Virus record (IMG/VR): IMGVR_UViG_3300025168_000044
Location: 1 to 64,000 of that record
Length of the DNA: 64,000 nucleotides
Strand: one strand, 5' to 3'
DNA from: a virus
Shown: positions 30,487 to 58,045 of the stretch, one piece after another
Layout: every line of letters begins with the position of its first letter
Position numbering within the stretch: position 1 is the first letter of the stretch
The notes under the pieces: model-generated
Seen by the model: the letters and a program-made list of their open reading frames with translations, nothing else
Told to the model about the DNA's origin: nothing
Databases searched by the model: none
Translations under genes and position numbers: made by a program

Positions 30487-33400
30487 TTAATCAGTAATTG
30501 TGGCTGGGAGAGGCCGAGCAGTTCCCAGCAACTTTTCGTACTGTTTCATAATCGCTTTGGTAAAGTATTCGTTCTTTTCCCTTATTCGCTCAATTTTTTC
30601 TTCATCACTTAAATTTTGATTGCCAGCAATTTTTTGTGATTCTCTTACTTGTCGTGATTTTAATTGACCGAGCTTATAGCTTTGCAGTTCAATGTTTCGG
30701 CGTTGAGCATTTAGTGGATCTACACTGTAAAGGTTGGCCCCTGCAAAGGTGCGCCCCAAAGATTGGCCCAGTGTGCGCTTAGGCTGGCCTTCACTGTCTA
30801 CTAAAGTGCTTTCATCATATAACATTGGGATCATCCCTTCTGCTGACAAAGCATCAATGAGCTGCCTGATCACGCCGCCCGTGGAGGGTATGGGCACATC
30901 ACTATCTGAGGTAATATATTTATGTGCCTCATCAATCATGCCTCGCAAAATTGCAGGCTGAAGCTGGTTAGATAACCAAACCGATCTTTGTACATCCTGG
31001 TCTTCTTCTGGCAAATAATCGTCAATGAACTTCCGTTTAGTAAAAGGATCTACACCTGTTCGGTAGCCTGCTACTAGATTCAACAAAAAGCTTTGAAGAA
31101 TACCTGATTGAGCTGCGGCGCTGTCAACATTACCTCGGCTTAATTCTTCTGCCGCTCTGGTATACATGCCCCAAGGGATGTAGTACGTCTGATCAATGAG
31201 TTGAAAGCGGTCCATGCTGTCTTTAAATGGGAACAAGGCCAGCGATGGGTTCTTTTCTGCCCATTCACCTCTAGCTTTTTTGAGCGCCTCGACTGAATCT
31301 TCTTCATCCTCTTCAAACATTTCCTCTATGGTTTGCTTAAAGCCAAACTGTATTATTTTGCTGAGAGTATTAAAGAGCTTGTACTGCCATGCTAGCAACA
31401 GCAAGGATCGACGGCCTACCCCTGCAGGGTCGCGTTTTAAAGCTCTTGGGAAAGTTTCCAGAACCTTAGCAGTATAGGTTATAAAGGCAGCCCCTAGCGG
31501 AGAGGTTCTTGTGGTGCGAACCCACGGGCGCACCAGCGAGTAATCAAACAAAGCATCCTCTGCCAGCCTGACCGCTTCCTCCTCACTTAGCCCCTTTTCT
31601 TCCATTGCATACATGACCACGCTCATCTTATCCATGAACTCCATGTTCTGGTAGATAAAGCCTCCCTTGTCTACAATGTACTTGTTCCAAAGGTTTGCTA
31701 GATGCAGGTAGTAAATTTCGGCTGCAGAAAAGTCCTTGAATTCTTCAATAGGCAGCCCTGTCATTTCTGACAGCTCTCGCTTTTCGGCTGGAGAAAGTTT
31801 ATTCTTTTGCGTCTTGAGCTTGATTTGAAACTCAGCAACTTCCTGCCGAATGCGTTTTAGCTCCTGATTAGAAAACGTCCCAACACCTAAGCCATACTTT
31901 TCAAAAATCTCCTTATACTGCCGGTCTTTTTGATTGGCATCATTACTGAGCAAACTCTGAACAGCTCGGATATTATAGCTTAAAGCATTTACACCCAATT
32001 TCCTTGTGTTGATAGGGAATGGTGGCATTCCTGTGATCACATACATCCAGAGCTTGTTGGAAACAAAGTTCCTAGCCATCGACGGTGGGTTGAGGGCTAC
32101 ACTGAACAGCTTTTGGTAGCGCTGGTACTTTGCCGCAACACTGTCATCGCCAAAAAGAAACTTTGTCATGAAGTCATCTTTGCCTGGCTCAATTTGCGTG
32201 AAGCCTACGATGTCATCATAAATCTCCTGCTTCACCCACATCCCACGAAGAGCCCCATAGCGTTTGTCCTTTGGCATCTTTGCCCAGCCTTCAAAAGCAG
32301 TGGCACTTTCATCAGTGGGTAACCCCATTCGGCCCAATGCTTCTCGCTTGTAGTCATCCATGCGCTTGGTCAGGGTGTAAAGAGCCTGCTGGTACTTTGC
32401 GCTTTTCGTTGGAGCAATCTGGTCTCGGATCCTTTGGGCTTCTTCACTCAGGTAGCTGGCTGTCACATCGTAGCCTCGCATCCCTATAATTGGATCCAAG
32501 ACTTTCAGCATTTCAACCAAGGCAGCTGTTTCTAAATTGTTCGATAGCCATGATGCAGCAGCTCGTTGCTTTTCATTAGCCTGAATGGGTTGTTGTTGAT
32601 CTAATGCCAGCACCACAATTGGTTCCAACCCCTTAGCCCTTCGCTTTAAGCGCCGTTGGTTTCTGAAAGGCCGGTCAGGGTCTGTGCGCTCCAGCTCTGT
32701 TTGGAGGCGAGTAAACTGGCTGCGGATATAGCTCCATAGCTTTTGCTCTGCCAAGGCGGCTTCCACCTGAGCAGGTTGGCCGGTATCAGTTTCCAACATC
32801 GACTGCTGCCCAGCAGAAATTGCTCTTTGGTCATCAACATTCTGAGAAAGTTTAGCGCTGGTCCCAGAAATCCAATCGCCGAAGATATCAAGGACACTGA
32901 GCAAGTTCGATGGGATAATCTGAGGTTCCAACTCATGCAAACGGAGGTTTTGTGATAGCTGAATAGCCTCCTCCTGCGTCATTTGATTTGCATCCAGCAT
33001 CTCATTGATGATCTGTTGCATCTCATCATGGAGACTAAAGCCCGTAAATTGATCCTGCAAAGTCCAGGCAGGGTTTTCTGCCAAAGATTGAAAGTATTCG
33101 AGCAAGGCAATGTCACGGCCCACGGTTCCAACACTTTGAGCTGCTAAGAATGCGGGATCTTTCACAATGCCCAAAATCTCTTGGACTAATAAATCTGTTG
33201 GGTTGTCCCCAGTGAGCTTCCTGCGATTGGTGTAGTTCAACGGTGAGGGCTTGCGGCCAGTGGATAGAACCGCATTGACTTCATCGGGTAGGAGGTACTT
33301 CAAATAAACTTGAGGCAAATACTTGAAGCGATACTTCTCATAGGACTCTTGGGGAATCTGCCCAAGGTCTACCAGCTGCTGCCCTAAGTCATCAATCTCA

Positions 33401-36400
33401 TCTCTGGTCTTGACCGCTATCGCACGATCACTCTCAATGGTCACAGATTCTTCAGGCAACCCCTGCGTCAGCATCTCGTAAATTTCAGTCGGGGTTTCAG
33501 CTGTGCGGATACCATCATAGATTTCCCGCTGAACGCGCTCGGCCTTCTGGATCTTACCTTTTGCCAAATTTCTAAGTGTCAGCAGCTCGTCACGATGCTT
33601 GACATAAGCAAAGGGGTCAACAAAGCCGCTTACCCCGCTGGCAATCCGCTTGATGCGGTAAATCAGCTTGGCTGGGTCAAACAGGTTTTCAAAGAAATTG
33701 ATATTGGTAAATTTTTTACCAAGGCTTTGCTTCTCTTCTTCATTGAGAGGCCGTCTACCTCTGGGTCTGAGGCTAAACAGCTCATCTCGCTTTGTATCAA
33801 TCACTCGGTAATCCTCATTGGTAAAGAGGATCCCACGGTTAATTTCAGGTTCAATCTTTGGAATGGAGGGTAGTGCGTTCAGCTGCGTTTCATATTCGGC
33901 AAATGAAGCCAGATTTGCCGAGTTGGTTTCCGAAACCGTCCTTTTATTTATGCCAACATTGACATCACTGGCAACTGCCTCATAGTTCTTGGCGATCTTG
34001 CCTAGATGGTTTGGATAGCGCTGGTCATAAAATAGCCTTGTGCCTTCTTGAGCACCTGCTGCAGTAAGATTGTTACGAATGGTTTGATCGCCAGAGGATA
34101 AAACTATGCCATCGTAGCCTTCTCGCGCAGCCAGCTTCGTAATGAACTCCAAGCCTCGACGCCACCAGTTTTCCTGCAGAAAGTTTGGAGGCACACCCGA
34201 ATTGTTCCGTTTGTCTTTAATTTCACCTACTTTATCCGACAGAGCCTTAATCTCAGAGTCTGCTGCTGCAAATAAATCAGCTGCTCTTGCATCATATGGT
34301 GCTGCATCATCCTGTCGGCCCATTTCATTGATAATGGCCCTGTTTAATCTGCCAATGTCTTGATTGACAATGGCCCCATTACCATAGACTGCTCTGATTT
34401 GATCCAAAGTTAGTGGATTACTATCCCTCAGCATATGCTGGACAAAATCCTCAGAGTCTACAAATTTGTCAAAGAATGTGCGTATTGTGCGTAGCCGAAA
34501 AACATCCTGCATTTTCGCCACATCCCAAGGGTTCATTCGCTGATACCTTAAAACTTCTTCATCTGTGAGAGGCTTCAAGTTTTCATTCAATTGAAAAAAT
34601 TCATCAGCATCAATTCTGTCACGGCCTTGCTCTACTATAAATCTTCTTTCGCCTTCAATAAAGTTTGGGCCAGACTCTGCCTCATACGGTGCACCCCTAG
34701 TCATTACCGCACTTTGAAAGTACGGGTTACTAAACTCGTAGGAAAACAATTCGGTTAAAATAACATTCGCAGATTTTTCAAATTGTGAATTGCTTGACAA
34801 AGATATGTCCCTTGCAGCAGCAAGTTTCCTGTCTAGTTCGTTTTCGGCATTTTCTCGAGCATTTTGAATATCTTGATCTGAAGGTCTTGGCGCAATTCGG
34901 TTGTCAACATACTCCTGGTACACTTGGCCTAGATTGTTAAAAAGTTCCTGCTGCCTAAGTTTAATAGAAGTTTCCGTTTGGATTTGATCTTCTAACAACT
35001 GTTTGCTTTCTCCAGAACTTAGAGGCTCATTGCCGAATTTTCTTCCTTGCTGGAAACGGTCAGATTGCAGTTGATCCATAAATAAAACTTTTTCACCATC
35101 TGAAGTCCTGCGATCCTGCACCAAAAAGAAGAAAAGCGAATTGGGAACTGGGAAATGGTCCCCTTGGATGGTGTAATCATACTTGGGTTGGTTCTGTTCC
35201 ATATTTTTATGGACAAGCACGATTTGCCGGTAGTTACTGCCCCCAGGTTCCTGACTTAAAACGTACTCTGATTCCGCAGAAGTATGCACAAGCACTTCAG
35301 GGATAGCCGCATTTTTGGCTACTTCTTCCACAACGATGGGCCGGTTGGGGTTGCCATCGACAAACGTCTCTTTATCACCAAACAGCGTTTGCACTTCTTG
35401 CGTAGGGCGGCGGCTCATTGCCACCCGCTTGCTTCGAGCCATGTCAATCAGCCGGTCATACGCGTTCCCTGCTGGCATTCCGTCATAAATGTATTGTTGC
35501 CGGTGTTTGCCTCGGGCCTTGAGGAATTTGCTTTCACTTGCAAAGTCGGCGCGTACCGGCTCAGGGGGCAGATCCTGCAGAACCTCAACGAGCTTGCTTT
35601 CAAACATCGGGCGGTCTACGTTACGCCTTTCGCCGGTCTTTGGATCCGTCACCTTAATGCCAGCAACTAAAGGCTGATCGACAATGTTGCTTGGATCAAA
35701 AGTGCGCCTTAGCGAAAATAATTTTCCTCCTTCGTCAACAGGCTTCGTTAAGTTCCTTTGGTCTGTGGGCAATCCCTTTACAGCATTTTTAGCCAAAACC
35801 AGCGCACCTACCTGAATAACTTCATCAGCGGTATTTAGAGGCATCCCATCAGTTTTGTCATAAAACCAAGAGTACCTATGTGGCTTATACCCAACTTGAG
35901 TCCAAGTGCTACCATCGGCATCACGGTAAGTAGCCTTCCCTAGCGGGTTGTCCATTATGCTGACGGCTTGATTATATAAAGCTTCGGGGTCTTCATTGAC
36001 AAATGTCCCATTGATTAAGGCAAAAGGAGATTTGGCCGCCTCCCCCATTGCTACCTGCAATGCTTTCTTGGCAATGTTGTCAGCTCCAAAAGTCACATCA
36101 GTGATCTTGGCTGCCTTGCCATAGCCTATTGGTGCCCCGCTGCTATCGTGAATTGTTGGGGTGTATACTCCATAAGACTTATAGCTTGGAATGTCTAAAC
36201 GCAGCCCAACGCGAATCCCGTCAATTATAAATTTTGTAAGACCTATAAGACCCTTGTTACCTTTTAGTTTATTGCTATCAAGGGCGTTTACATGGTCGCT
36301 CCAAGGCCGTATGGACGGCGTGCTTTCTAGTGGTACTATTGGGTCAAATTCCCTTACGGCTGCTAAATATTTTTGTTGAGCTGCAAGCATCTTCGCTTCT

Positions 36401-39400
36401 GTTTCGTATTGGGCCTGTCCATACTTTCTTGCTGCCTCAATCAATTGTGGCGATGGGTCTTCAAGAAATTTCCCTTTGTTTGCGGACTTCCACGCAGTAA
36501 CTGCTTCTTCAGATGTGTCTGCAGCAGCAAGGTTCCGTTCGTAGCTAGGGGCGCCTTCAACACCTACCTGGGGCTTGCGCCTTAGCGAGAACAACGCCCC
36601 CTGGCTTGGGTCTTCCAGCACAGACTCATCAACAGAAAAAAAGTTCTCAACTAGCTTTTCATAGCCTAGTGGAGATTCATCTACTAAGTCTGTTGCATAC
36701 AGTTTTAAATGCTCATAGAACTTATCAAACTTCTTGCGCATTGAAGTAATGCTGGCCTTGCGAGTATTGCCCCGCATACTGCGCACCAGTATTCTTTGAG
36801 CCTTATCCTTAAAAGGCATCAATTCCCCGATGTTGCTAAAATCTTCAGCAGCAGCAGGGTTTTTTTCTAGGTCGTTATATACTGCTTCTGCTTCTCGCCA
36901 ATCTTGATAGATCCTATCTGTCAACCCTTGCAGCTCTTGCTTTAGGTTTTGATTCAGCTGCATCGCATCAACGGCTTGTAGCAAGTTTAGGCGTTTGGGC
37001 ACACTATCTCTTAGAGCGCCAACTTGTGCTGGGATTTCAGTAGCAAGTGAGATTTGGTCAACCAGCTCCTTGGGGTACGCTTTGGTAAAGAGTGCTAGTG
37101 TAAAAATCTTTTCACCCTCTTTTGTAAGCCCTCCATCTTCAGTAAAGTAAAGTTTGTATTCAGTGGCGTTTGGCACAAGCGCTTGAATCCGCTCTCGCAC
37201 ACCTTTTCTGGTGATTGCTAACCCATCTTCAGTAATAAGGCTTTGGACATCAATGCTGTTCATCTGGTTGCCCAGATCCCTTGCCTTCTCTGCCAGAGAC
37301 AGCACCTCGACTTGGGGCTTGTTCTCAATGTTTGCAATTTTTTCAATAGTGCCTTGGGGCAGATCCTCGGTAAAGCGCCGCACCATGATAAGCCGTGTGC
37401 CATTGGCCTTGGCTTCATTGATCCGCTCCAACACGGTGCTAGGGCTAAAGCCTAAGCCTTCTGCTCTTTCCAGCAGTTCGTCCTCGTAGTTTTGCCAGAA
37501 CTGGCTTTCTCGCTGGTTCTCTTGATTTGTGGCTTGTTCAGCAAGATACTTTAGGGCTCTAGAGCGATTATTGCCACTGAGGACTGCGCCCTGGTTGTTG
37601 ATGATGGGGGCTCCCATGCCAGGGTCAGGGCTGTTTCCTAAGAAGCGAGTCTCGTCAGGCTCCCCGATAATCTCACGCAGCTTGGGATCTGCCTGCAAAG
37701 AAGTCCGGTCCCTAGGCTGCACTCCAGCAGCTCTGGCAAAATCTGGGTTGATGGAGCCATCCAACTCATTGCTAATAAATATGTCATCGACATTGACCAA
37801 AGCCACCTGAGCTGGGGCATTTTCACTGACTGCTGCAATGTCTCTTGGGATATTGGCCTCAACGCCGCCATCGACTTGGACAGGAGTGGGGGTGATTGTG
37901 GGGGGGGTTAAAGCTAGCGGTTGTTCTGTGGGATTAACAAACGCTGATAATATTGCTTCTCTGCCACGTTGGACAATGCTGAAAACTTCTTGCTTAAGTT
38001 CTTTTTTGCCGCTTGGCAATAAAGGTGAAACACTACTGTCAGCCAAAACATTAAAGTCCTCAGCTCCTCGACGTTTTGCAATGATTTCACCTACACGGGA
38101 ATAAGCCGATTGCATTACTTCTGGAGAATCCAAGTTTACTTCAAGGTTCTTACCTGATAAATACATCCCAACAGCATCTCCCCTAAAATCTAGCTCAAAT
38201 GTTTCCAAAATAGCGTTGGCAAGCTCATCATCCCGAAGAGCATTGCGAACACTTTGCTCTATAGGTTGCCTACCCATTTCATACTCAACCCGATCCATTG
38301 CAATGCGGCTATCAAGCAGAGACTTAGCCTTTTGAAGATCCTTTTTGTTAATTGTTTTTTCAATTTCATTAATACGAACATCTTCATTCAGTTGTTTTGC
38401 TACTTCGTATTCTGATTTTTTTGCAAACCAATCACTCCCATATTTAGCAACCATTTGGTCATCAAAATCATCAATGCTTTGTTGAAGAGTTTTACCTTCT
38501 GCTTGCAGTTTAGCTAATTTTTTCTCACTTTTAGTTCGATAAAAACCAGCGGTAAAATTGGTTGGCTTAAGCTCTTCCTCTATATTGAACAATTCAACGG
38601 CACGGCGTAACAGCTGAATTTGAGCCTGCCTTTGCTCTTCGCTGTCTCTTTCAACCCGCTGACCATTTACCCTAATTTTACTTTCATAATACCCTGTTAA
38701 ATAGGCATCAAACGCCAAATTCCCAATTGCTTTTGGAGTAGTAAACTCAGCAAGGTCAAAATTAAGCAGGGCTGTGTAGTTTGTCCCACTTGCTTTTTCT
38801 ATGCTTTTTGCTTTTGCAACTTCATACCTTATAGAGTTTTGATGTGCAGCATCCATTGGCTCCAGCACCACATCAAGCTGTCCATCCTGCAGACTCAAGC
38901 GACCGACCGCCTCGGTTTTGCCAAACAGCCCTGTTGGCATAATGTTGCGCAACCTCACCAGCTCAGAGTTGTTTTGTTCAGAAACTAAAATTTCTGCAAT
39001 TTGCGGGGCTACCGGACGGCCTTGCGGATCAACAACAGGGTCATCCCCTAGATGTGTATTGAATTCAGCAATCAGCTCTTCTGGACTTAGCAGGTAGTTA
39101 AAAAACTTTACATCAGGTTTTTCTTCCTGCTGCATGGCTGCATCCACTTTAGATCGCAAGCCTGGATAAAGAAAATCTTCAATCTGTTGCAGCTCTTCAT
39201 CAATGTCAGGTAATTGATTAATGCGATCACCGACAAGACTATGAGTGGCATGACCCAATTCATGCAGAATGACATGAGCAATTTCTGTGTTGTCAGCATC
39301 CAGTGCAAAATCTAGATCAAGGCCAACTCCACCATTAAAATGCGCTCCGTTCCAAGTATAACTTCTTTCATGCAGCCGAATGTTCCCTAATTGGTTGCCA

Positions 39401-42400
39401 TAGCGGTCCACAACCTTCTGTTCAGGATTTTCAACAACTGGCTTGGTTTCATTGTATTCAATTTCTTGGAACTTGCGTTCTCTCCTCGTTGGGCTCGAAA
39501 GAGTATCTTCCTCGTTACCACCACTAATCCTTACGTTTGTTTCAACTGCGTCTTCTTCAAGCTCTGGCTGGTTACGCCGATCAATAAGCGTAGGTGTACG
39601 ATCCAGCATAAAAATGTTCCTGACCTCATCTTGGTCAAGACCTGCTAGGGAGTCATCGGTTTCACGGCCATTGGTCCCCTCCATCTCACTCGGGACTTCT
39701 GGCGCGGGAGGCATGACCACAGCTGGAGACTCTGGGCTGACGCCGCTGGCTGCCTCCTCCTCTTGCAGAGCTTCAAGCTGCCGGTCAAATTGCTCTTGAT
39801 AGGCTCTGATTTCTGCATCAGTAGCTTCAGCATCCAAAGGCTCCAACGTTGTTGTTGGCTCCTGAGCAACTGGCTGTATTTCTGGTGGTGGAGTGCGCTC
39901 AAGGCTTTCTATGTCAACGCTGGATTCTGGAACTGCCTGCTGCTCTGCTTCTGCCAGAGTTGGTGCTGCCCTCTCTGGCAACTCCACAGTGAATGGGAAG
40001 TCATCATTCTCAAAGACTTCTTTCAGCAGACGGCTTTGATCTCTAGTGCTAAGATCCTCAAACTTTTTACCTTTGGCAATTCGCTTACCCGCTGTGCTGA
40101 CTTTGCCTGCTGGAGTCTTTATTGCTGCCCCAACCAGCTCTCTCGTAGCATCTGGCAAACTGGCAAACCAAGGCTTAATTGCCTCCTCCTGCTCAACTCG
40201 TAGCATCTCCTTCGTAGCCCTTGCCGTTGGAGCTGCAGCTTTTACTGGCTCAACAGCAGGAGGCTCTGCCAGAACTGGGGCCTCTTGAGCTAGACTGGTA
40301 TCGGATTCCGGCACTTCTGGTGCAACAGCTTCAGGCATTTCTAGGGCTTCTTCCTGCTCTACCAACTCCTCAAAAGTTCGGCCTTCTGGCAATTTCTTTT
40401 CAACCACACTTCTAAACAGCCTTGCACCATCAGAATCTTCTTTACCATCGCGTTTTAGTTGTAGGTATTTTCTGAAAGTCTTCCACGCTGATTCTGGTAA
40501 ATTAATAATTTCTGGAGGCGCAACCTCTGGTAGCGTTGCCTCTTCCACAACAGGACCAGGGGCTGGTTTTGAAGCCACTTCCTCTTCAATGGCATTCGGC
40601 AAGGTTTTGAGGTCAGGGGCTTCTGGTGGGTCAAGTCGGTCATCATTGGCAACCAGCAGTTTAAGGTTGTCTGTTGGCACATTCCGCTCAACTCTGCCCG
40701 TTTCGGTCATGAGCATGTCTACAGAACCATCCTCATTAGTTTCGAGGATTACCCCAGCCATCCCACTTTTTTCAGCAACATCATCCAAGCCTATCATCTC
40801 GCCGCTTTGATAAGTTGGAGCTGCAGGCTCAACTTGTTCTGTGAGGATTGCATTGCCATCTGAAGTTTCCTCAATATCCACATCCTCTAAAGGTAGTGAC
40901 CCACCTCTCGGAGCTGGCTGTGGGCGCTCTGGCAAAACTGTTTCTTGGCTGGTCAGTGGGGGGATAGTCAGGTCTTCTGTTGGCTCCGTTGTTACCTCTG
41001 GCTCTGCCCTGCCAAAGAGGCGGCTGGCTTCTTCCTGCAACGGCGTTTGCGGCGCTACATCTGCGCCTATTTGATCGCCAAGTGTCGCAGGTGTCGCAAC
41101 TGTCGCAACTGTCGCAGACTCTTCACTGCCAATCTGATCGCCCTCTTGAGCTGGAGCCTCTTGAGCTGGAGCCTCTGGTGGAGGAGTTGTTTCGGGTGGT
41201 TTCTGTTTGGTGGCCCGTGGTGGCTGACGTTTCTTTCCACCGTCTGTTTGCTGTTTAACGATTTCAGCAAATAAACTTCTCAGCTCAATTTCAGATGCCT
41301 TAGCAATGTTGCCTCGACTCTCTGCCAGCTTCTGCCGAAGACCCGCCTGCCACTGTGCCTTGAGCTGCCCTTTTTCCGCATACTTGTTGACAATCCATTC
41401 CTCTGTTGCCGTCAGGTCATTGGCATTGGGGTAGCGTTCCTGGCGGAAGGCGTCAATCTCTTCCCCAAAAGTGATATACATCCTTTGAAGCAAGGAATCC
41501 CGATCCTCATCACTCATGATGTCGCGCAGTCCTTGATGACCTACATACTCATGCTCAATGACTTCAACAGCTCTAATCGCCATCCGTTCAACAGGGGAGA
41601 GCTTAAACTCTTTACCTTGGCTTAGAAAACCCGTGATGTTTAATCCTGAGACAAAATCTGGGCGGGGTTCTAGGGATCCTGAAGCAATGTTTTCTGCAAT
41701 AAAAGTGATTGTCTGAGTGCCCTTGTCAAAATAGCCTTCCGCCTGAGAATTGATCTGAGCCTTTGGGAATAGCGCTTGTGCTTCTTCCACAGTTCCAACC
41801 ACCTTGACCTTCCCAGCTTGGACCCGATCTCTCAACGACTTATTGCTTTTTGCCAGAAGCTTAATTGCAAACTGCAAAACTTGGGGGGTAGCAACAATCT
41901 CTTGAGCATTTCGGTTAGTCAGCTCATTAAAAGTTTCTTGTTGCCCTTTTGAAATAGGTTCGGCTTCTAGTGAGCCAGATGGAACACTATCTTGTCTGGT
42001 TTCAACCTGTTCCCCTGCGAAGATGCCGCCTTCCTCGGTCTGGGTTACCCCAGATTCAATGTCAAAATTTGGATCCAACAAATTGGGCTCAGGAGTAGGC
42101 CCTTCTGCTTGCCCACTCAGCATCCCTTCAGCCCCTTGCAGCTCCTCTTGCCTTACCGCATCCCCAAATAAAGTATCCAACAAGTTGGGCTGGCCTTCCC
42201 CAAACGCCCCCTCATCTGATTGATTTGGCATTTTATATTTGTCATACCATGCTCTCAGGCTTTGCTCTTTTGCTGCGACTGCCTCTGCAGAATTGGCAAT
42301 CTTTTGGCCCAAACGCCGTTGCCTAACCGTTTCAAACTGCTGCTGCATCCCATCGGGGCCTTCCAGCATGTACTGGCCCGATGTAACAAACCCAGAGATA

Positions 42401-44052
42401 GTTCCGCCAGCAGCAGCTTCCATTGCTGCCGACTTAATGGCTTCCATATCATCCCAAAGGTGAGCTTCTTCATTAGTAATGTCATCACCTAGCACTTCCT
42501 TTAGAGCAACCTGCATCCCGTCTCTGACTGCCTTGTAGTCAAAGAATCCAGTAATCCCTTCTGTAAATGCGTCATAGGCTACGTTTTTAGCCATGAACTC
42601 TGAAAGACTTGCTGCATTTCGGATAGTATAAATGCTTGCGGCATCTGCGAGTGAAGCCAAATTAAAAACAAGGCTTTTCCCATCCTTACCATCAATTTTA
42701 AATGCGCTGTCTGGCGCTTTATCTGTATCCACAACTCTATATAGATACATCCGGTTATCACTAACCTCTCGAACCAAAGTGCTTTCGGCTCTCATCATTG
42801 CAGTTTGCAACGCTTCATCATCAGGATACCGCAACCGTAATTTGTCACGAATGGCCTTACGGCGAGGATCTAGCGGGACATTTTCGTTAAAAAGTAATTT
42901 TAATTCTGCAACCCCAGAACCAACATTTTGGCTGGTGGCGGCATCTAAGGAGCCAGTGACTACACCACTTTTGGCAGCTAAGGGCCCAGCAAAAGACGCA
43001 ATTGCTCCAACCGTCAACCCTTGGACAAGAGCTGGGGTAGAACTAGGAAGCGTTTGGGAAAATTCGCCAAGAATAAAGTTTTTGCCTTGAAAGGGAGTAA
43101 GCTGATCTCCCGTAAATTCATCATACTTTTGGCGCTCCTCTGAAGTCACTTCCTGCTGGGTTGCAATTTTTTTCGCAATGGCAGCCAGCTCATTGGTAAA
43201 GGTTTGCGGCTTCCAGCTTTCTCCTAATTCTCTAATGTCCAGCAAAAGCGCGTCAGAAACTAAATTGGTGTCTATGCCTAGCTGAGATAATGTATCACTG
43301 CCATAAAGCGCTCGGCTGGATGCGCCAACTAGCAAATCACCAAAGGCACTAGCAGTTGCAGTGGGAACATTTTTTAAGCCAATGCCCAAGTTCTGCAGCT
43401 CTTCCTTTGCAACCTGAAGCGCTCTCTGGTTTTCTTGCTCTACAAAGGCTTCATCCTCTTTCCGCACAGCTGGTGGAAGGACCTGTTCTAGATTCCGCAA
43501 CTTTCCCAACTGGATCCGCTCGGCTTCCATTGCTTGCAGCTGATTTGCGCCTTCGAGTTGGGCATCAGGCTGAGGTTGGATAACTGCTGGAGTTAGGGCA
43601 AATGGCCCAGTGTTCGGGGCAGCAAACAACTTAGGTGAAGAAGAGTCAGGAGGGGGGACAGGTGGTGGTTCCAGATTTTGCTTAGGGGCTGGCGGGGCTT
43701 CTGCAGAAAATTGCTGAAAATAGTCAGGGATTTGCTGAGAGGCCGGATCAAATTCTAGGTTCAGCTCTGGTTGAGGGAACTCCAAGTTGGTAGGTTCTAA
43801 ATCCCCAACAGCTTCAAATAAATCAAGAAGTTGTAACGCTTGTTGGGCGCTTGTGCCATCACGCAAGAAGTTTTCAAACAGTTCAACCCGTTTTTCATCA
43901 CTTGTCTGATTACTTTGCAGAATTTCTTCAGGCATCCGCAACGGCCCAGGTGGGGCAATCTTTGGGGTGTCAATGCCAAGGTAATCAATATTGGTTTCCC
44001 TGTCAGATCTAGCATAGAAAGGGGCAAATTGGTTGCTGCCAAATTGAGCCAT
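30487..44052 (-). CDS. Giant polyvalent/ejected virion protein (4,521 aa)
   Basis: The N-terminal ~830 residues are mostly Pro/Gln-rich linker with helical blocks and a domain before a metal-site motif HEYVGH at 834-839. A long Pro/Glu/Ala-rich linker (about 920-1480) leads to a classic zinc peptidase motif HELGH at 1597-1601. Around 2100-2200 lies SGNNRSRAL (Ser2159), the signature of the DdrB-like ParB domain. Further domains have LQSDRFQQGRKFG and a EGYDGIVLSSGDQ motif as in large polyvalent proteins, then ALNPPSMARNFVSN near 3990. These families are known in proteins carried by phages and conjugative elements into the host. Injection with the DNA is inferred. Confidence 0.85.
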   Translation of the reverse strand: MAQFGSNQFAPFYARSDRETNIDYLGIDTPKIAPPGPLRMPEEILQSNQTSDEKRVELFENFLRDGTSAQQALQLLDLFEAVGDLEPTNLEFPQPELNLEFDPASQQIPDYFQQFSAEAPPAPKQNLEPPPVPPPDSSSPKLFAAPNTGPFALTPAVIQPQPDAQLEGANQLQAMEAERIQLGKLRNLEQVLPPAVRKEDEAFVEQENQRALQVAKEELQNLGIGLKNVPTATASAFGDLLVGASSRALYGSDTLSQLGIDTNLVSDALLLDIRELGESWKPQTFTNELAAIAKKIATQQEVTSEERQKYDEFTGDQLTPFQGKNFILGEFSQTLPSSTPALVQGLTVGAIASFAGPLAAKSGVVTGSLDAATSQNVGSGVAELKLLFNENVPLDPRRKAIRDKLRLRYPDDEALQTAMMRAESTLVREVSDNRMYLYRVVDTDKAPDSAFKIDGKDGKSLVFNLASLADAASIYTIRNAASLSEFMAKNVAYDAFTEGITGFFDYKAVRDGMQVALKEVLGDDITNEEAHLWDDMEAIKSAAMEAAAGGTISGFVTSGQYMLEGPDGMQQQFETVRQRRLGQKIANSAEAVAAKEQSLRAWYDKYKMPNQSDEGAFGEGQPNLLDTLFGDAVRQEELQGAEGMLSGQAEGPTPEPNLLDPNFDIESGVTQTEEGGIFAGEQVETRQDSVPSGSLEAEPISKGQQETFNELTNRNAQEIVATPQVLQFAIKLLAKSNKSLRDRVQAGKVKVVGTVEEAQALFPKAQINSQAEGYFDKGTQTITFIAENIASGSLEPRPDFVSGLNITGFLSQGKEFKLSPVERMAIRAVEVIEHEYVGHQGLRDIMSDEDRDSLLQRMYITFGEEIDAFRQERYPNANDLTATEEWIVNKYAEKGQLKAQWQAGLRQKLAESRGNIAKASEIELRSLFAEIVKQQTDGGKKRQPPRATKQKPPETTPPPEAPAQEAPAQEGDQIGSEESATVATVATPATLGDQIGADVAPQTPLQEEASRLFGRAEPEVTTEPTEDLTIPPLTSQETVLPERPQPAPRGGSLPLEDVDIEETSDGNAILTEQVEPAAPTYQSGEMIGLDDVAEKSGMAGVILETNEDGSVDMLMTETGRVERNVPTDNLKLLVANDDRLDPPEAPDLKTLPNAIEEEVASKPAPGPVVEEATLPEVAPPEIINLPESAWKTFRKYLQLKRDGKEDSDGARLFRSVVEKKLPEGRTFEELVEQEEALEMPEAVAPEVPESDTSLAQEAPVLAEPPAVEPVKAAAPTARATKEMLRVEQEEAIKPWFASLPDATRELVGAAIKTPAGKVSTAGKRIAKGKKFEDLSTRDQSRLLKEVFENDDFPFTVELPERAAPTLAEAEQQAVPESSVDIESLERTPPPEIQPVAQEPTTTLEPLDAEATDAEIRAYQEQFDRQLEALQEEEAASGVSPESPAVVMPPAPEVPSEMEGTNGRETDDSLAGLDQDEVRNIFMLDRTPTLIDRRNQPELEEDAVETNVRISGGNEEDTLSSPTRRERKFQEIEYNETKPVVENPEQKVVDRYGNQLGNIRLHERSYTWNGAHFNGGVGLDLDFALDADNTEIAHVILHELGHATHSLVGDRINQLPDIDEELQQIEDFLYPGLRSKVDAAMQQEEKPDVKFFNYLLSPEELIAEFNTHLGDDPVVDPQGRPVAPQIAEILVSEQNNSELVRLRNIMPTGLFGKTEAVGRLSLQDGQLDVVLEPMDAAHQNSIRYEVAKAKSIEKASGTNYTALLNFDLAEFTTPKAIGNLAFDAYLTGYYESKIRVNGQRVERDSEEQRQAQIQLLRRAVELFNIEEELKPTNFTAGFYRTKSEKKLAKLQAEGKTLQQSIDDFDDQMVAKYGSDWFAKKSEYEVAKQLNEDVRINEIEKTINKKDLQKAKSLLDSRIAMDRVEYEMGRQPIEQSVRNALRDDELANAILETFELDFRGDAVGMYLSGKNLEVNLDSPEVMQSAYSRVGEIIAKRRGAEDFNVLADSSVSPLLPSGKKELKQEVFSIVQRGREAILSAFVNPTEQPLALTPPTITPTPVQVDGGVEANIPRDIAAVSENAPAQVALVNVDDIFISNELDGSINPDFARAAGVQPRDRTSLQADPKLREIIGEPDETRFLGNSPDPGMGAPIINNQGAVLSGNNRSRALKYLAEQATNQENQRESQFWQNYEDELLERAEGLGFSPSTVLERINEAKANGTRLIMVRRFTEDLPQGTIEKIANIENKPQVEVLSLAEKARDLGNQMNSIDVQSLITEDGLAITRKGVRERIQALVPNATEYKLYFTEDGGLTKEGEKIFTLALFTKAYPKELVDQISLATEIPAQVGALRDSVPKRLNLLQAVDAMQLNQNLKQELQGLTDRIYQDWREAEAVYNDLEKNPAAAEDFSNIGELMPFKDKAQRILVRSMRGNTRKASITSMRKKFDKFYEHLKLYATDLVDESPLGYEKLVENFFSVDESVLEDPSQGALFSLRRKPQVGVEGAPSYERNLAAADTSEEAVTAWKSANKGKFLEDPSPQLIEAARKYGQAQYETEAKMLAAQQKYLAAVREFDPIVPLESTPSIRPWSDHVNALDSNKLKGNKGLIGLTKFIIDGIRVGLRLDIPSYKSYGVYTPTIHDSSGAPIGYGKAAKITDVTFGADNIAKKALQVAMGEAAKSPFALINGTFVNEDPEALYNQAVSIMDNPLGKATYRDADGSTWTQVGYKPHRYSWFYDKTDGMPLNTADEVIQVGALVLAKNAVKGLPTDQRNLTKPVDEGGKLFSLRRTFDPSNIVDQPLVAGIKVTDPKTGERRNVDRPMFESKLVEVLQDLPPEPVRADFASESKFLKARGKHRQQYIYDGMPAGNAYDRLIDMARSKRVAMSRRPTQEVQTLFGDKETFVDGNPNRPIVVEEVAKNAAIPEVLVHTSAESEYVLSQEPGGSNYRQIVLVHKNMEQNQPKYDYTIQGDHFPVPNSLFFFLVQDRRTSDGEKVLFMDQLQSDRFQQGRKFGNEPLSSGESKQLLEDQIQTETSIKLRQQELFNNLGQVYQEYVDNRIAPRPSDQDIQNARENAENELDRKLAAARDISLSSNSQFEKSANVILTELFSYEFSNPYFQSAVMTRGAPYEAESGPNFIEGERRFIVEQGRDRIDADEFFQLNENLKPLTDEEVLRYQRMNPWDVAKMQDVFRLRTIRTFFDKFVDSEDFVQHMLRDSNPLTLDQIRAVYGNGAIVNQDIGRLNRAIINEMGRQDDAAPYDARAADLFAAADSEIKALSDKVGEIKDKRNNSGVPPNFLQENWWRRGLEFITKLAAREGYDGIVLSSGDQTIRNNLTAAGAQEGTRLFYDQRYPNHLGKIAKNYEAVASDVNVGINKRTVSETNSANLASFAEYETQLNALPSIPKIEPEINRGILFTNEDYRVIDTKRDELFSLRPRGRRPLNEEEKQSLGKKFTNINFFENLFDPAKLIYRIKRIASGVSGFVDPFAYVKHRDELLTLRNLAKGKIQKAERVQREIYDGIRTAETPTEIYEMLTQGLPEESVTIESDRAIAVKTRDEIDDLGQQLVDLGQIPQESYEKYRFKYLPQVYLKYLLPDEVNAVLSTGRKPSPLNYTNRRKLTGDNPTDLLVQEILGIVKDPAFLAAQSVGTVGRDIALLEYFQSLAENPAWTLQDQFTGFSLHDEMQQIINEMLDANQMTQEEAIQLSQNLRLHELEPQIIPSNLLSVLDIFGDWISGTSAKLSQNVDDQRAISAGQQSMLETDTGQPAQVEAALAEQKLWSYIRSQFTRLQTELERTDPDRPFRNQRRLKRRAKGLEPIVVLALDQQQPIQANEKQRAAASWLSNNLETAALVEMLKVLDPIIGMRGYDVTASYLSEEAQRIRDQIAPTKSAKYQQALYTLTKRMDDYKREALGRMGLPTDESATAFEGWAKMPKDKRYGALRGMWVKQEIYDDIVGFTQIEPGKDDFMTKFLFGDDSVAAKYQRYQKLFSVALNPPSMARNFVSNKLWMYVITGMPPFPINTRKLGVNALSYNIRAVQSLLSNDANQKDRQYKEIFEKYGLGVGTFSNQELKRIRQEVAEFQIKLKTQKNKLSPAEKRELSEMTGLPIEEFKDFSAAEIYYLHLANLWNKYIVDKGGFIYQNMEFMDKMSVVMYAMEEKGLSEEEAVRLAEDALFDYSLVRPWVRTTRTSPLGAAFITYTAKVLETFPRALKRDPAGVGRRSLLLLAWQYKLFNTLSKIIQFGFKQTIEEMFEEDEEDSVEALKKARGEWAEKNPSLALFPFKDSMDRFQLIDQTYYIPWGMYTRAAEELSRGNVDSAAAQSGILQSFLLNLVAGYRTGVDPFTKRKFIDDYLPEEDQDVQRSVWLSNQLQPAILRGMIDEAHKYITSDSDVPIPSTGGVIRQLIDALSAEGMIPMLYDESTLVDSEGQPKRTLGQSLGRTFAGANLYSVDPLNAQRRNIELQSYKLGQLKSRQVRESQKIAGNQNLSDEEKIERIREKNEYFTKAIMKQYEKLLGTARPLPATITD

Positions 44053-44053: not shown

Positions 44054-46153
44054 TTATTGCCCCCTATTATTTAGCGCCTGTTGAAGCATTTGTTGAAAAA
44101 GGGGGTTGCTTGAAAGTAATCCTAATGCCTTGGGGTCATTCATTACTCTATCTACAAGCCCCTCAAACGCATTATTGGTATAACCGGCTCCGCGCACATT
44201 TGCCAAATTGCCATTAGCAGAGCCTGCAGCTGGGGCTTCTTTCCCCTTTCTTGTTGCCGCCGCCTTCTTCAACTTTGCCTCATTTTTTTCGGCTGTATTT
44301 TGTTCGGTGCGATTACGTTCTAAAAGTCGTTGATTTATTGCAGAATCTTTTGTTAAATCAGGTAAGGTTTGTTGGAGATTGTATTGGTTAACAAGAGTTC
44401 CGTTTTCTCTCAAAACTTGGTTATAGTTCATCCCTACCCCCCCTATAGGAGCAAGGGTTTCTTGGTCAAGCCTGAGAACATTCTCTAAATTAGATTGATT
44501 TTCTTGCCCACCACCTTGGGTACGTTGCCTACCCCCAATTGAGGTTCTTAGATTAGGTTCCCCTTGAGGACGGCTAACGGGAGCTTCGATTGTATTTCCT
44601 TGCCCTGCAGCTTGATCAGCGCTGGGGCTAGAAAAATCAAATTTGAGTAGATTACTGAGAAACCCATATTCTTGAGTGTCTGGTGGTGGCTCCAGCTTTT
44701 GCTTAGGGGCTGGTTCTGGGGCTGCTTGTAAACTTAAACGCTTTAGTGGGTTTTGGGGCAGCTGTTCTATTGCAGCATTTATAGAATTCCGTGCCCGTTC
44801 AACTGCTTCATTAGACGGTTCATACAATGCTATGTAGGAATCCAACAACCCTTGCAAAACTTCAGGTGATTGGGCAACTGATTGCCCTAAAATGTCTGTT
44901 TTCTCTTTGTCAATCTGAGCGACTTTTGAAATAAACAGTTTGTCATTGGTATTTTGATTATCACTCTTAAGAACACTCAACAAATCTTGGGCTAAATCTT
45001 CGTCCATATCAGCATTTTGAGCTGCTACCAAAAATTGTTCATCAGACATTTTGTCTGTGCCAACTAAAGATTTTGCATTTTCTAACACCTTCTTTGCTTG
45101 TTCTAGCCTTGGTGCAGTTTCTAACTCAAACTTTTTTAGATTTACCTCAATGGAAAACCGTAGTTGTGCATCTGCGCTGAGTCTCTCATAATCCTCACTT
45201 GCCACCAAAGCTGGGAAACTTTGCGCCAGCTTTTTATACTCATCTTTTGTGGTAACCTTACCTAGCATGTCTTGAAAGGGTTTTAGATTTTCGCGGTCCC
45301 GCTTCAGTTCATTGTTTTCTGCAGTATCCACAGCAGCCTCAAATCTAAAATTGTCTCTTGTAATTGCTACTTTTGCAGCATTGGCTTCCCTTTCAATTTG
45401 CGCACGATCCTTTGCAAATTTCCTTTTGATACTAGGAGGAGCGTTGTCATACGCAGCTAATGCGCTTTCAGCATCCCCGCCATTTATGAAAGAGGTAATA
45501 GCGTTTTGCACTTTTGCAACTTGGGTTGAATAATCAAAAGGGTTGTTGCCGCCGACTGCTTCCGTTGCTTGCTGTTCTAGCTTTTGGAAATCAAGCATGT
45601 AGCTTGGATTGTCATCGCCTAGTTCATACTTTGTCCGATGGGAAGAATTTAACTGGTCAATCATGCTGGTTGTGGCCGCTGGAGCCATGTCTCTTGCTTC
45701 AGCAACTTTCAGCAGATTATTCAGGTTGGTGGTGTAGTCATTTTGCTGCTTTGCCAGCTCTCGCTCTTGAAAAGCCCCATAGGCGCCCATCACTTGAGGG
45801 GCTACTTGGTTGATCGTTTCAAAACTGCTTGGCTGCGTGTAGGGCATCCCTGTCAACTCTTGCTCGTTGTAAGGTTTGACCATACTGTTAGCACCACTTC
45901 CCAAGGTACTGCCAAGCTGGTAGCCCATCGCCATGGTTGCAGGGTTGTATCCCGTAGCCATTCCAGCCACAGCTGCTCCTGCCACTCCACCCAGAGTGCC
46001 AACCAACCCCCGATTGCTTCTAGCGTTTGAGGCTGCTCTCCGAGCTGCTGCAGCTTCCTCTTGTTGCCGTTTGATTTCACGGCGTTGCTTGCGATTGGCT
46101 AAAGCGTTGCCAAAATTCATTAACGATTGTCCGTAATTAGGGAAACTAGCCAT
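44054..46153 (-). CDS. Ejection/internal virion protein (699 aa)
   Basis: Residues ~48-90 are a Gly/Ala-rich membrane-like segment (GLVGTLGGVAGAAVAGMATG), typical of short-tailed-phage proteins that extend the tail into the envelope. The rest is helical (KVLENAKSLVGTDKMSDEQF) and Pro/Gln-rich. A PAPKQKLEPPP motif near residue 485 is shared with the giant protein. It precedes the giant gene by 1 bp. Role in DNA translocation is inferred from sequence character and position. Confidence 0.6.
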   Translation of the reverse strand: MASFPNYGQSLMNFGNALANRKQRREIKRQQEEAAAARRAASNARSNRGLVGTLGGVAGAAVAGMATGYNPATMAMGYQLGSTLGSGANSMVKPYNEQELTGMPYTQPSSFETINQVAPQVMGAYGAFQERELAKQQNDYTTNLNNLLKVAEARDMAPAATTSMIDQLNSSHRTKYELGDDNPSYMLDFQKLEQQATEAVGGNNPFDYSTQVAKVQNAITSFINGGDAESALAAYDNAPPSIKRKFAKDRAQIEREANAAKVAITRDNFRFEAAVDTAENNELKRDRENLKPFQDMLGKVTTKDEYKKLAQSFPALVASEDYERLSADAQLRFSIEVNLKKFELETAPRLEQAKKVLENAKSLVGTDKMSDEQFLVAAQNADMDEDLAQDLLSVLKSDNQNTNDKLFISKVAQIDKEKTDILGQSVAQSPEVLQGLLDSYIALYEPSNEAVERARNSINAAIEQLPQNPLKRLSLQAAPEPAPKQKLEPPPDTQEYGFLSNLLKFDFSSPSADQAAGQGNTIEAPVSRPQGEPNLRTSIGGRQRTQGGGQENQSNLENVLRLDQETLAPIGGVGMNYNQVLRENGTLVNQYNLQQTLPDLTKDSAINQRLLERNRTEQNTAEKNEAKLKKAAATRKGKEAPAAGSANGNLANVRGAGYTNNAFEGLVDRVMNDPKALGLLSSNPLFQQMLQQALNNRGQ

Positions 46154-46155: not shown

Positions 46156-48786
46156 TTAATCGTTAGCTATGATGTTGTTAGTCGCATTGGAAATATCAAT
46201 GTCTCCAGAAGTTTGAGCCGAAGAGCCGGTCAATGTGTTGATATTGTTGAGAATGCTTTGCCCATAATTAGTCACCAGAGGGCTCATCGTGATGTACGGA
46301 TTGGTGGCTGCCAGCTGATTCGTTAGGTAGTTCCCAACATTACCCACCCCAGCATTTGCAAAGTTGATTGCCTGCCCCCCTGCAGCCAATTGGCTATTTG
46401 CCGCATTGGCGCTGATCCCTGCTGATGTGTTGTATAATTCCGCTTGTTGAATAGCAGCTCCTGCTTGTTGTCCTAAAAGCCCAACACCTTGCATCAAAGC
46501 GTTGGCTTTGTTGCTGATTAGATTGCCTTCAGAAAGTAAAGTATTGATTCCCATGCCATAAGCTGTACCTCGACCTGCTAGGCTGCGTTCGACACCACCG
46601 AGCAAGGAGGCTGAATTGCTCATGGCCTGAGCGCCCATGTTGAAGCTGTCAATTGCAGCTTGCCGTCTGGCTTGTTGAAGCGAGTTAGTTCGGTTGTTCT
46701 CCAACTCCATTAGAGCAGAAGTATACGCTGGTGAGTTCGGGCTCATCCCGCTTTGAGCAAATTGCGTATTGAGGGTTTCTCGAACGCCTTGTGCGCTCTG
46801 CTGCACTTGATCAGCAGCATCACTGTAAAGGAGATCCAGATAATTACGATACGGCGTAGGGCTACGAGATTCATTAAACATTTCACGATATTGAGCGCCT
46901 ACTTCATCATAGTCACTAGCCAGATCCTGAGTCAGAGATTCGTAAGGCCGCAGACGGTTGATTACTTCTTGATAATCCTGAGCAATCCCCCCTTCGCCTG
47001 GAGTAGAGCCGACCAGCTGCGTTTCATATTCGGCAAATCTGGCTTCAAAGGATTGGGGATTATAGACGGGGTTGCCATCTGAATCCGTGGTGTAGGCGCC
47101 AAAGCGATCACCAATGTCCGCAATCGCTTGCCCCATGTCGCGCATGTTATCAATGTCCTGCTCTGCTAGATCAATTGCGCCGCCTTCATCCAGCAGTTCA
47201 CTGACCACATTTTCTACACGATCATAAACTGTGGATTCCTCAATGACATTGCCCTCAGAATCCACTTCAATAGGTTGGCCGTTAAAGGTGTAGCTCTCTG
47301 CCGTTGCTGTGGATCCATCCGTTTGCAGGGTATTTCCTGTTGAATCCTGAAAGGTCCCATCGCCTTGCTGGGTATAGGTTGTTTGATCAATGACAACGCT
47401 GGCCCCCTGAGAAAACTGAGCAAATTCGGTATACCCAGATTCTGGTGTAATAATACCTACCTCATCTTCACCAACAGCTTTTCCTTTGGATGTAATGCCA
47501 ACAAAATTTCCATCGGCATCATAGACAAATTGCCCATATCCATCCCCACCCATTTCTTTAACAAATGAACTGGGGTCACGGTTATAGCTTGTTCTAAGAG
47601 AAGGGATTTCTACACCTAAATCTGTCGTTTTAGCAGGGGATTGTTCTTCCGTAGGGGGTGTGTCACTAACAGTAAACCCTGCTGGCAGGTTGTTCATATC
47701 TAACTGCCCAGCAATCGGATTGTTAATCTGAGCGTCAGGAAACAACTCTTGAAGTTGAGGCAACCCCTCTGGAGTCACAGGGTCAATTGGTTTTTGCCCA
47801 GGCACCAGCTCATAACCTTCTGCTAGGGTTTCCCCATCTGCCCCATAAATGCTTTCGCCTGTTTTAACCTTGATGCTGCCATCAGCTGCACTAGAGAGCT
47901 TGCTAAACACGCCGCCCTCTCTTGCCCCATTATCACCTGTTGGGGTACCAAAAAGATGATTCATTATGCCATCACGGATCCCAGCATTCTTTGCGTATTC
48001 CTTGCTGAGTATGCCAGTGCCATCATAGCCAGACAGCACGTTGTACGGCGTTTCCGTTGGCTCAAAAGATCCTGTTGTCTCATTGAAGTTGGCATAAACC
48101 ATTTGTCCTTGGCCGTTGTCCATTAAAATGGTTTCTTCCCCACCACCACTTGGCTGATAAACGTATACGCCTCGGTCTTCATCAAAAACAAAGGTGTCGC
48201 TATACGCTTGGTCAATTTCTTCTTTTGAAAGCTGGCTGTATTCAGCCTTGCCCAGCAGCATCTGCGACATATACTGAATCTGGGCTATCGTTTTTGGCGA
48301 AAGCCGAATCTGGCTATCCTCAAAGGTTGAGTTCATCCATTCGTTAAAAGCCTCTAGCGGGTCTTCAGCTTCCACGACCTGAGTGACAAACTCTTCCGCT
48401 TCCGCTTCTGTTACCCCACCACTATCACTGGTGGTGGTTGTGGAATTATTAAGGGTTTCGCCTGTTTTTGGATCTACCCCACCACCACCAAGGTTAATTG
48501 GCGTCCCTTGAGTAATGAACTCTGAAATTTGTTGAAGAACTCCTTTTTCTTCCTCTTCATCCTCCTCTGTGGTCTGACTGTTTACAATGATGTCCCCAAG
48601 GCTTTTCTCTGGGTCATCATTGTACTCCCGTAGCCCTGTCATTGGGTTCCGACCACCAGAGCCGCCTAGGCGTTTGAGCATTTGGGCTTCTTCAGGATTG
48701 ATGTGCGCAAGGATGGTGTCTCCCCCTCGCCCCATTTGTTCAGCTTGCTTAAGCACGCTTTTCATCCCTGAGCTGTAAGCATTCAT
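46156..48786 (-). CDS. Ejection/internal virion protein (876 aa)
   Basis: The N-terminal part is acidic and Gly-rich with many low-complexity stretches. The C-terminal ~280 residues are helical and resemble P22-type DNA-ejection proteins: DQVQQSAQGVRETLNTQFAQ, GMSPNSPAYTSALMELENNR, then Ala/Gly-rich LLGGVERSLAGRGTAYGMGI. It shares FAEYETQL with the giant protein, encoded by an identical 25-bp stretch. It overlaps the upstream gene by four bases. Confidence 0.6.
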   Translation of the reverse strand: MNAYSSGMKSVLKQAEQMGRGGDTILAHINPEEAQMLKRLGGSGGRNPMTGLREYNDDPEKSLGDIIVNSQTTEEDEEEEKGVLQQISEFITQGTPINLGGGGVDPKTGETLNNSTTTTSDSGGVTEAEAEEFVTQVVEAEDPLEAFNEWMNSTFEDSQIRLSPKTIAQIQYMSQMLLGKAEYSQLSKEEIDQAYSDTFVFDEDRGVYVYQPSGGGEETILMDNGQGQMVYANFNETTGSFEPTETPYNVLSGYDGTGILSKEYAKNAGIRDGIMNHLFGTPTGDNGAREGGVFSKLSSAADGSIKVKTGESIYGADGETLAEGYELVPGQKPIDPVTPEGLPQLQELFPDAQINNPIAGQLDMNNLPAGFTVSDTPPTEEQSPAKTTDLGVEIPSLRTSYNRDPSSFVKEMGGDGYGQFVYDADGNFVGITSKGKAVGEDEVGIITPESGYTEFAQFSQGASVVIDQTTYTQQGDGTFQDSTGNTLQTDGSTATAESYTFNGQPIEVDSEGNVIEESTVYDRVENVVSELLDEGGAIDLAEQDIDNMRDMGQAIADIGDRFGAYTTDSDGNPVYNPQSFEARFAEYETQLVGSTPGEGGIAQDYQEVINRLRPYESLTQDLASDYDEVGAQYREMFNESRSPTPYRNYLDLLYSDAADQVQQSAQGVRETLNTQFAQSGMSPNSPAYTSALMELENNRTNSLQQARRQAAIDSFNMGAQAMSNSASLLGGVERSLAGRGTAYGMGINTLLSEGNLISNKANALMQGVGLLGQQAGAAIQQAELYNTSAGISANAANSQLAAGGQAINFANAGVGNVGNYLTNQLAATNPYITMSPLVTNYGQSILNNINTLTGSSAQTSGDIDISNATNNIIAND

Positions 48787-55161: not shown

Positions 55162-55502
55162 TTGCTGTTCTTTGTTTCTTGCTGCATGATGATTTTAAGC
55201 TCATTGATGCTGGTGTGAAGATCCTGCAAAACTTTAGTTGTATTTTCCATAATACCCATCAGGCTTTGATAGCTCGACTTCTGGAGCTCCAAGACTCTGA
55301 TGTCGCTAGCAGTGTCTTTTTCGTCAAATCTCTTACGTTCTTCAGATGCCTCCAACCGTAGTTTCTCCCGCTCAAGCTGGTGTTCTTGCTCTTTTCGATC
55401 AAATGTCTGGTTTAGAAAGCGGATGTACCAAAAGGCGCAACCGAGAACTAACGTTGATGTCCCAAGTTGTTGGGCCATTTCGACAAACCCTGCATCAATC
55501 AT
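55158..55502 (-). CDS. Membrane-anchored coiled-coil lysis protein candidate
   Basis: I choose ATG 55502, with GGAG upstream, over an earlier TTG or ATG. One hydrophobic segment (LGTSTLVLGCAFWYIRF) is followed by a charged coiled coil. This looks like an inner-membrane spanin (i-spanin) or accessory holin; its position next to the endolysin supports a lysis role. No outer-membrane partner was identified. Confidence 0.55.
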   Translation of the reverse strand: MIDAGFVEMAQQLGTSTLVLGCAFWYIRFLNQTFDRKEQEHQLEREKLRLEASEERKRFDEKDTASDIRVLELQKSSYQSLMGIMENTTKVLQDLHTSINELKIIMQQETKNSK

Positions 55503-55503
55503 A

Positions 55504-56052: not shown

Positions 56053-56061
56053 ATTTTCACT

Positions 56062-58042: not shown

Positions 58043-58045
58043 AAA

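Follow-up and report, generated by a model that had tools for sequence, protein, structure and literature searches.

The window, i.e., the analysed stretch of 64,000 nucleotides from the start of the viral IMG/VR record IMGVR_UViG_3300025168_000044, carries on its minus strand a single open reading frame of 4,521 codons without internal stop. It runs uninterrupted from 30487 to 44052, exactly where a protein of 4,521 aa had been predicted. The gene possesses a strong Shine-Dalgarno sequence (AGGGGG) as ribosome-binding site, and its ATG begins 1 base past the stop of the upstream 699-aa gene (TAACATG). It is the last gene of a late operon with the following order:

49764..53591, minus strand: 1,275-aa gene; 3 cysteines; the C-terminal part matches PHROG 511 'internal virion protein'
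48783..49568, minus strand: 261-aa gene; 0 cysteines
46156..48786, minus strand: 876-aa gene, putative ejection protein; 0 cysteines
44054..46153, minus strand: 699-aa gene, putative ejection protein; 0 cysteines; position as that of N4 gp51
30487..44052, minus strand: giant gene, putative polyvalent/ejection protein of 4,521 aa; final gene of the late operon; 0 cysteines

Residues 8-64 of the 876-aa protein resemble the product of a gene upstream of a related giant gene (L161). The late-gene context on this one strand comprises the PHROG 511 internal virion protein, an endolysin and further late genes, and genes for terminase, portal and major head protein were found at 4.6-11.4 kb on the strand shared with the giant gene. 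The phage of the giant gene, termed phage A, has portal/head-tail genes of the podovirus type (phrog_332, phrog_1216). As a CI-like repressor and an integrase are encoded at 27.7-29.5 kb, phage A is probably temperate. At 22674-23657 a 327-aa protein matches HNH endonuclease families; its 23 cysteines set it sharply apart from the late genes without cysteine.

The full IMG/VR record comprises 90,956 bp. Past ~55.5 kb the GC content is lower, and terminase, portal and major head protein are encoded a second time. Because of these two sets and the GC shift near 55 kb, the 91-kb record probably represents a fusion of two phages in a single contig (or elements lying side by side). The second gene set (window ~55500-64000, L002 and L003; 55.5-91 kb of the record) includes an SU10-type adaptor, a DNA polymerase and a ribonucleotide reductase at 30-39% GC, and the second phage also encodes a Mom-like DNA modification protein (L002:15488-16300; PHROG 1384, E=3e-31). 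Phage A thus measures ~55.4 kb, of which the giant gene occupies 13,566 of about 55,400 bp (24.5%), in agreement with the quarter of the genome that had been estimated.

Upstream of its C-terminal part the giant protein showed the following features, all encoded on the minus strand:

42907..43065, minus strand: stretch of highest hydrophobicity, residues 330-382; lies near the N-terminus and may interact with membranes; weakly resembles relative L225
41536..41553, minus strand: HEYVGH (HExxxH) motif, residues 834-839; motif class described in PMC5512222
39613..41205, minus strand: P/E-rich low-complexity stretch by composition, residues 950-1480; separates the two putative peptidase regions
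39250..39264, minus strand: HELGH zincin-like motif, residues 1597-1601; sole HExxH in the protein
36712..37821, minus strand: DdrB-like ParB domain plus C-terminal extension, residues 2078-2447; related to P1/D6 DdrB
35761..36546, minus strand: widespread domain, residues 2503-2764; overlaps Pfam PF25735 (L5_gp82)
34948..35280, minus strand: 'QSD' region, residues 2925-3035; weakly common to the related giants L250, L185, L234, L168 and L163 (E about 1e-3)

The ddrB-ParB domain was the sole curated Pfam domain over threshold. PF18763 matched residues 2078-2203 with E=2.2e-12 and 47.6 bits against a cut-off of 27.6, which bears out the DdrB-like ParB motif of the original prediction. A PHROG 5143 match carries this region on to residue 2447, and the DdrB of phage D6 aligns with residues 2085-2376 at ~26% identity. 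In the P1-like contigs L090-L139, DdrB homologues were observed as open reading frames of either ~1,010 or ~460-500 aa, which suggests a split or truncation of the DdrB gene in many P1-like phages.

Two metal-peptidase-like motifs had been predicted as well. HELGH at residue 1597 is a true HExxH and is surrounded by a weak PF01863 match under the cut-off; HEYVGH at residue 834 turned out to be an HExxxH, not an HExxH. According to Iyer et al. (2017, PMC5512222), one set of polyvalent metallopeptidases uses the HEXXXH form. In zincins of polyvalent proteins the motif lies on a zincin fold and is complemented by a Glu ligand further downstream. The MPTase-PolyVal model (PF18818) did not match the giant protein even at E<=10. 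Assigned from such short motifs, zincin-type peptidase domains are probable in the giant. Domains of the large-polyvalent class, also predicted, were not recovered, with no LPD or MPTase-PolyVal Pfam model reaching threshold. Still, with ddrB-ParB, the 2503-2764 domain, the HExxH/HExxxH motifs and the C-terminal module, domains of disparate activity are combined in one chain. Together with relatives bearing ART-PolyVal, InPase, RadC, GGDEF and Acb1, this upholds the classification as a multidomain polyvalent-type protein. A PDB sequence search with the whole giant protein yielded chance matches only.

The domain at residues 2503-2764, which overlaps a weak PF25735 match, occurs in at least 590 IMG/VR stretches, both within giants and beside portal genes (L036, L069, L005 and L006 among the examples). 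It is also part of a roseophage protein encoded next to the portal gene (gp54 in CRP-9). Its AF2 model reached a pLDDT of 89.6, and Foldseek found no fold for it in the PDB at E<=0.001. Among the carriers is a second cysteine-free giant (L036:1661-15232; 4,524 codons) with two HExxH motifs, a DUF3293/SAM-lyase-like domain and LPD23, which has only the 2503-2764 domain in common with the 4,521-aa protein of the window. The giant of L069 (3,302 aa) is cysteine-free too, and a 1,944-aa open reading frame (L017:962-6793) joins a zeta-toxin domain to a domain of the 2503-2764 type.

For the first 700 residues of the giant no profile-level match to relatives was obtained. A cluster linking this N-terminus to other giants was discarded; it was based on one local hit in a hydrophobic stretch (E=2e-5) and failed at the profile level. 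The best 19-residue hydropathy of the whole protein was 1.49 at residue 342, compared to 1.21 in the C-terminal quarter. Thus, of the helical membrane-associated C-terminus predicted originally, the helical part was retained, since the last ~1,080 residues are predicted almost wholly helical, and the membrane association was not.

The original prediction had missed the delivery-like module at the C-terminus, which organises the giant protein, as well as the missing cysteines. The module comprises:

30517..33657, minus strand: C-terminal module, residues ~3466-4512; conserved in 137 IMG/VR relatives and ctwe8250
32503..32985, minus strand: insert in the module, about residues 3690-3850; absent from relatives (alignment columns 281-466)
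31342..32298, minus strand: module core, about residues 3919-4237; homologous by profile comparison to C2 of the N4 virion RNA polymerase (vRNAP), about N4 residues 3120-3455
31471..31548, minus strand: signature FDYSxV ... P-x-G-x2-FITYT, residues 4169-4194; source of a DNA pattern for finding the family

Among 50,697 phage records, the closest and only relative of the C-terminal part was a 2,166-aa 'DNA repair protein' of the uncultivated podovirus ctwe8250. Single-sequence scans of IMG/VR with residues 3301-4521 and 1751-2600 gave no match, nor did a two-sequence alignment used as query. A degenerate DNA pattern (FDY...R..P.G..F-x-x-Y), made by hand from the giant and ctwe8250 sequences, retrieved 32 IMG/VR contigs, all 32 of which encode relatives, and a profile built from these extended the family to 137 IMG/VR relatives. 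In 84,980 prokaryote genomes searched with the patterns no relative of the module was detected. Pfam gave no meaningful match to the module, LPD models included, and PHROG marginal matches only; a match to a protein bearing LPD38 (PF18857) had E=0.018, with the alignment lying outside the LPD38 stretch. An AF2 model from 57 sequences (pLDDT 75.8, pTM 0.73) was almost all helical. When it was searched against BFVD, segments of annotated polyvalent proteins (ART-PolyVal, zeta toxin and LPD of unspecified kind) were matched with E values down to 1.7e-15. The C-terminal ends of other giants (L036, L063, L066, L069 and others) were considered as the same module, and this was not demonstrable.

With a length of ~1,050 residues the module ends compact proteins (~1,030-1,120 aa) as well as giants of up to 4,111 aa. 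The N-terminal part of the compact members matched the LUZ100 internal virion protein D (gp47) with a hhalign E value of 1.9e-28. The giants vary ahead of the module, with ddrB-ParB in L158 and L161 and ART-PolyVal in L152, L168 and others. Scanning the parts before the module in 34 members, we found ART-PolyVal in 8, InPase in 4 (E=6e-58 in one relative), RadC in 3, GGDEF in 2, and LPD23 and Acb1 in 1 each. The Acb1 domain (residues 918-1057, E=1e-35) resides in a 2,268-aa protein (L233:5474-12277) which combines the module, Acb1 and a methyltransferase domain in one frame; judged by these domains, it is a candidate for a pre-packaged anti-CBASS enzyme.

Profile-profile comparison connected the module to N4. 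An alignment of C2 (about residues 2376-3500 in N4) from ten Schitoviridae vRNAPs was compared with the module by hhalign, initially giving E=8.1e-9, with reversed and block-shuffled controls at E 0.1-0.5. Using 52 dereplicated modules plus the giant, the value improved to E=7.6e-10 (prob 96.5, 254 columns). Against five divergent vRNAPs only, E=2e-8 was obtained, and the sequence of the giant alone reached E=3e-4 against the N4 family. Unrelated controls (LUZ100 gp47, the ddrB and the 2503-2764 alignments) remained at E 0.3-0.7, and all controls had E>=0.09. The aligned blocks are collinear, for example giant LAEDALFDYSLVRPWVRTTRTSPLGAAFITYTAKVLETFPRALKRDP with N4 VTEEFINYDRLPGRFRGYMESMGLMWFYNFKIRSIKVAMSMIRNNP, and the match spans about 255 profile columns, corresponding to the module core and not to the whole module. 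A plain HMM comparison gave an N4 match in the wrong place and without significance, and the profile-profile comparison with controls was used instead. The C-termini of other giants did not match N4. Foldseek with the medium-confidence module model against the PDB returned nothing at E<=0.001, N4 vRNAP included, in a setting where the N4 entries (9pnq, 9pnr and 11gp for the C-terminal domain) are in the sequence copy and perhaps not in the fold library. In BFVD the model weakly matched segments of a Vibrio phage virion RNA polymerase (E=0.04, prob 0.98) and of an N4-type relative. Hence, the predicted link to N4 C2 has strong support from sequence profiles and weak support from structure. No vRNAP Pfam domain was found in the giant protein by the same library that finds four in N4.

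Encapsidation of N4 vRNAP reportedly depends on its C-terminal 1,400 aa, and the polymerase with its HExxH domain is packaged uncut (PMC5512222). Of the C-terminal pair of N4 domains, only the metallopeptidase domain was reported in a wider range of proteins (PMC5512222). According to a 2025 preprint, the C-terminal domain of N4 vRNAP has a new fold, with no significant structural homologue of C2, and this large domain inhibits the polymerase (PMC12633501). The occurrence of a C2 core across a wide family in which no RNA polymerase is detectable speaks for packaging or ejection as its conserved role and against transcription control. The family offers many natural cargo swaps for testing this role.

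The giant contains not one cysteine in 4,521 residues, compared to 47 expected at the rate of the other genes of the window (1.05%). In the two remaining frames of this DNA there are 153 and 252 TGY codons, so chance can hardly account for so long an open frame without cysteine. The entire family follows this pattern: 55 non-redundant module-bearing proteins contain 2 cysteines in 105,784 residues versus 1,424 expected from the rate in other genes of the same contigs (1.35%), and 54 of the 55 have none. Upstream of the module genes of the family, the first gene product shows 4 cysteines in 12,309 residues, the second 0 in 5,579 and the third 18 in 2,321. Family open reading frames were taken from one stop to the next and started at the first Met, which makes small N-terminal errors possible in these counts. 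The exclusion covers the giant and two upstream partners and then fades, as the third upstream gene is less depleted.

A comparable distribution is found in well-known podoviruses. In N4, cysteine is missing from vRNAP (0/3,500), gp51 (0/644) and gp52 (0/150); the controls gp53, the 94-kDa protein and the 160-kDa protein contain 4, 2 and 11, and the major coat protein also has 0. In T7, gp15 plus gp16 have 0 in 2,065 residues, gp14 has 1, and gp11, gp12 and gp17 have 2, 5 and 3. The LUZ100 internal virion proteins C and D have none. The lack of cysteines in N4-type vRNAPs was explained by passage through the tail (PMC3915230) and was noted also in PMC4837373; a review of ejection proteins from 2022 makes no mention of cysteine (PMC8954989). 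The cysteine rule would provide a sequence-only marker for proteins crossing the phage tail.

Taken together, we consider it likely that the giant is the terminal and largest ejection protein of a podovirus-like phage, built from cargo and a delivery module. The place of its gene, last in the late operon after three cysteine-free genes, the absence of cysteine and the homology of the C-terminal module to N4 C2 lend independent, though indirect, support to the injected virion protein of the original prediction. Presence in the virion, ejection, refolding and the targets of each enzymatic part are inferred. The C-terminal helical module of ~1,050 residues would be the packaging/delivery part. 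The N-terminal ~3,400 residues would represent the cargo, in which uncharacterised domains accompany the DdrB-like ParB domain and the probable peptidase domains of zincin type. From storage in the head the protein would be threaded, at least partly unfolded, through the narrow tail with two or three smaller cysteine-free partners, and the missing cysteines would reflect this unfolded passage. After refolding in the host it may protect the incoming DNA or blunt host defences, and its probable peptidase domains may cleave the giant itself or target proteins of the host.

A purely structural role, as for the ejectosome protein gp16 of T7, would explain the same place in the operon. Here, N-terminal domains would serve assembly or envelope penetration, and the enzyme-like domains would be remnants or spacers and not counter-defence effectors. 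The compact members of ~1,050-1,120 aa, with their N-terminal match to LUZ100 'internal virion D' (E=1.9e-28), fit such a role. However, it does not predict that relatives swap intact enzymatic domains on the same module (Acb1, E=1e-35; InPase, E=6e-58), and we regard it as unlikely. Only about half that probability is given to a head protein resembling the P1 Dar proteins, which would be cut by its own peptidase before packaging, with only the DdrB-ParB-bearing fragment injected. P1 DdrB is indeed processed before packaging (PMC5512222), the ddrB homology extends to about residue 2376 and two peptidase-like motifs are at hand; but the exclusion of cysteine over all 4,521 residues points to passage of the whole chain, and the HExxH-bearing vRNAP of N4 is packaged uncut (PMC5512222).

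Giants remaining in the tail exist as well: the tape measure protein of P23-45 has 5,002 residues and a fused RNA polymerase (PMC10770324). That the giant is such a tape-measure-type tail protein is nevertheless highly improbable, given the podovirus-type portal/head-tail genes (phrog_332, phrog_1216), its place at the end of the late operon after ejection-type genes and a homology to N4 C2, not to a tape measure protein. An assembly artefact in the gene or its surroundings might be suspected from the 91-kb record with its duplicate terminase, portal and major head protein sets and the GC shift near 55 kb. The probable join, however, lies about 11 kb from the giant gene, the giant is read from a single coherent frame that lacks cysteine, and independent contigs carry module-bearing giants of comparable size in the same context, which leaves this explanation hardly any weight.

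Extending the reading as a terminal ejection protein, N4 vRNAP may be one instance of a general delivery cassette, a proposal to which we give slightly better than even chances. A C2-type module would load huge cysteine-free multi-enzyme chains into podovirus heads and through tails, payloads such as RNA polymerase, DdrB-ParB, ADP-ribosyltransferase and Acb1 would be exchangeable, and strict cysteine exclusion would mark the module protein and its two upstream partners. If this is true, phages can bring ready-made counter-defence protein into the cell ahead of all phage gene expression, and ejectosomes can be found by cysteine exclusion from sequence alone. Acb1 built into a module-bearing protein predicts inhibition of defence from the first moment of infection.

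Polyvalent injected proteins, the cysteine-free N4 polymerase and larger phage proteins are already known. Acb1 is of the 2H phosphoesterase fold class. As a 2H phosphoesterase domain was already among the polyvalent domains listed in 2017, the Acb1-type payload as such extends known themes. As far as the open-access literature was checked, three points are new: the occurrence of a C2-type module in proteins other than RNA polymerases, the exchangeability of its payloads, Acb1 among them, and the exclusion of cysteine throughout the family, limited to about three genes; no description of the breadth of the module, the N4 C2 link or this exclusion was found there.

Of the known systems, the P1/D6 DdrB proteins share ~26% identity with residues 2085-2376 of the giant. 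Unlike the giant, they comprise about 450-1,010 aa, belong to P1-like phages and show no detectable C2-type module. The polyvalent proteins (Iyer et al., 2017, PMC5512222) agree in their large size, multidomain architecture, ddrB-ParB, HExxH/HExxxH motifs and late-gene context, and like them the relatives of the giant carry ART-PolyVal, InPase and LPD23; the C-terminal module, in contrast, matches none of the Pfam LPD models. T7 gp16 and the LUZ100 internal virion protein D resemble the giant in their operon place and lack of cysteine, and LUZ100 gp47 is matched by the N-terminal part of the compact family members, whereas the C-terminal module matches neither of the two (E=0.1 against T7 gp16). 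The protein of ctwe8250 (UOF79314; MW202615) has the module, an HExxH motif, no cysteine and a position after structural genes in common with the giant, but comprises only 2,166 aa, and its remainder is not recognisably homologous. N4 gp50 (Schitoviridae) differs in bearing an RNA polymerase, a domain undetectable in the giant with its cargo of ddrB-ParB and other domains. Like the giant, it is huge, free of cysteine, equipped with an HExxH domain and encoded last in a structural operon after two cysteine-free ejection proteins (gp51 and gp52).
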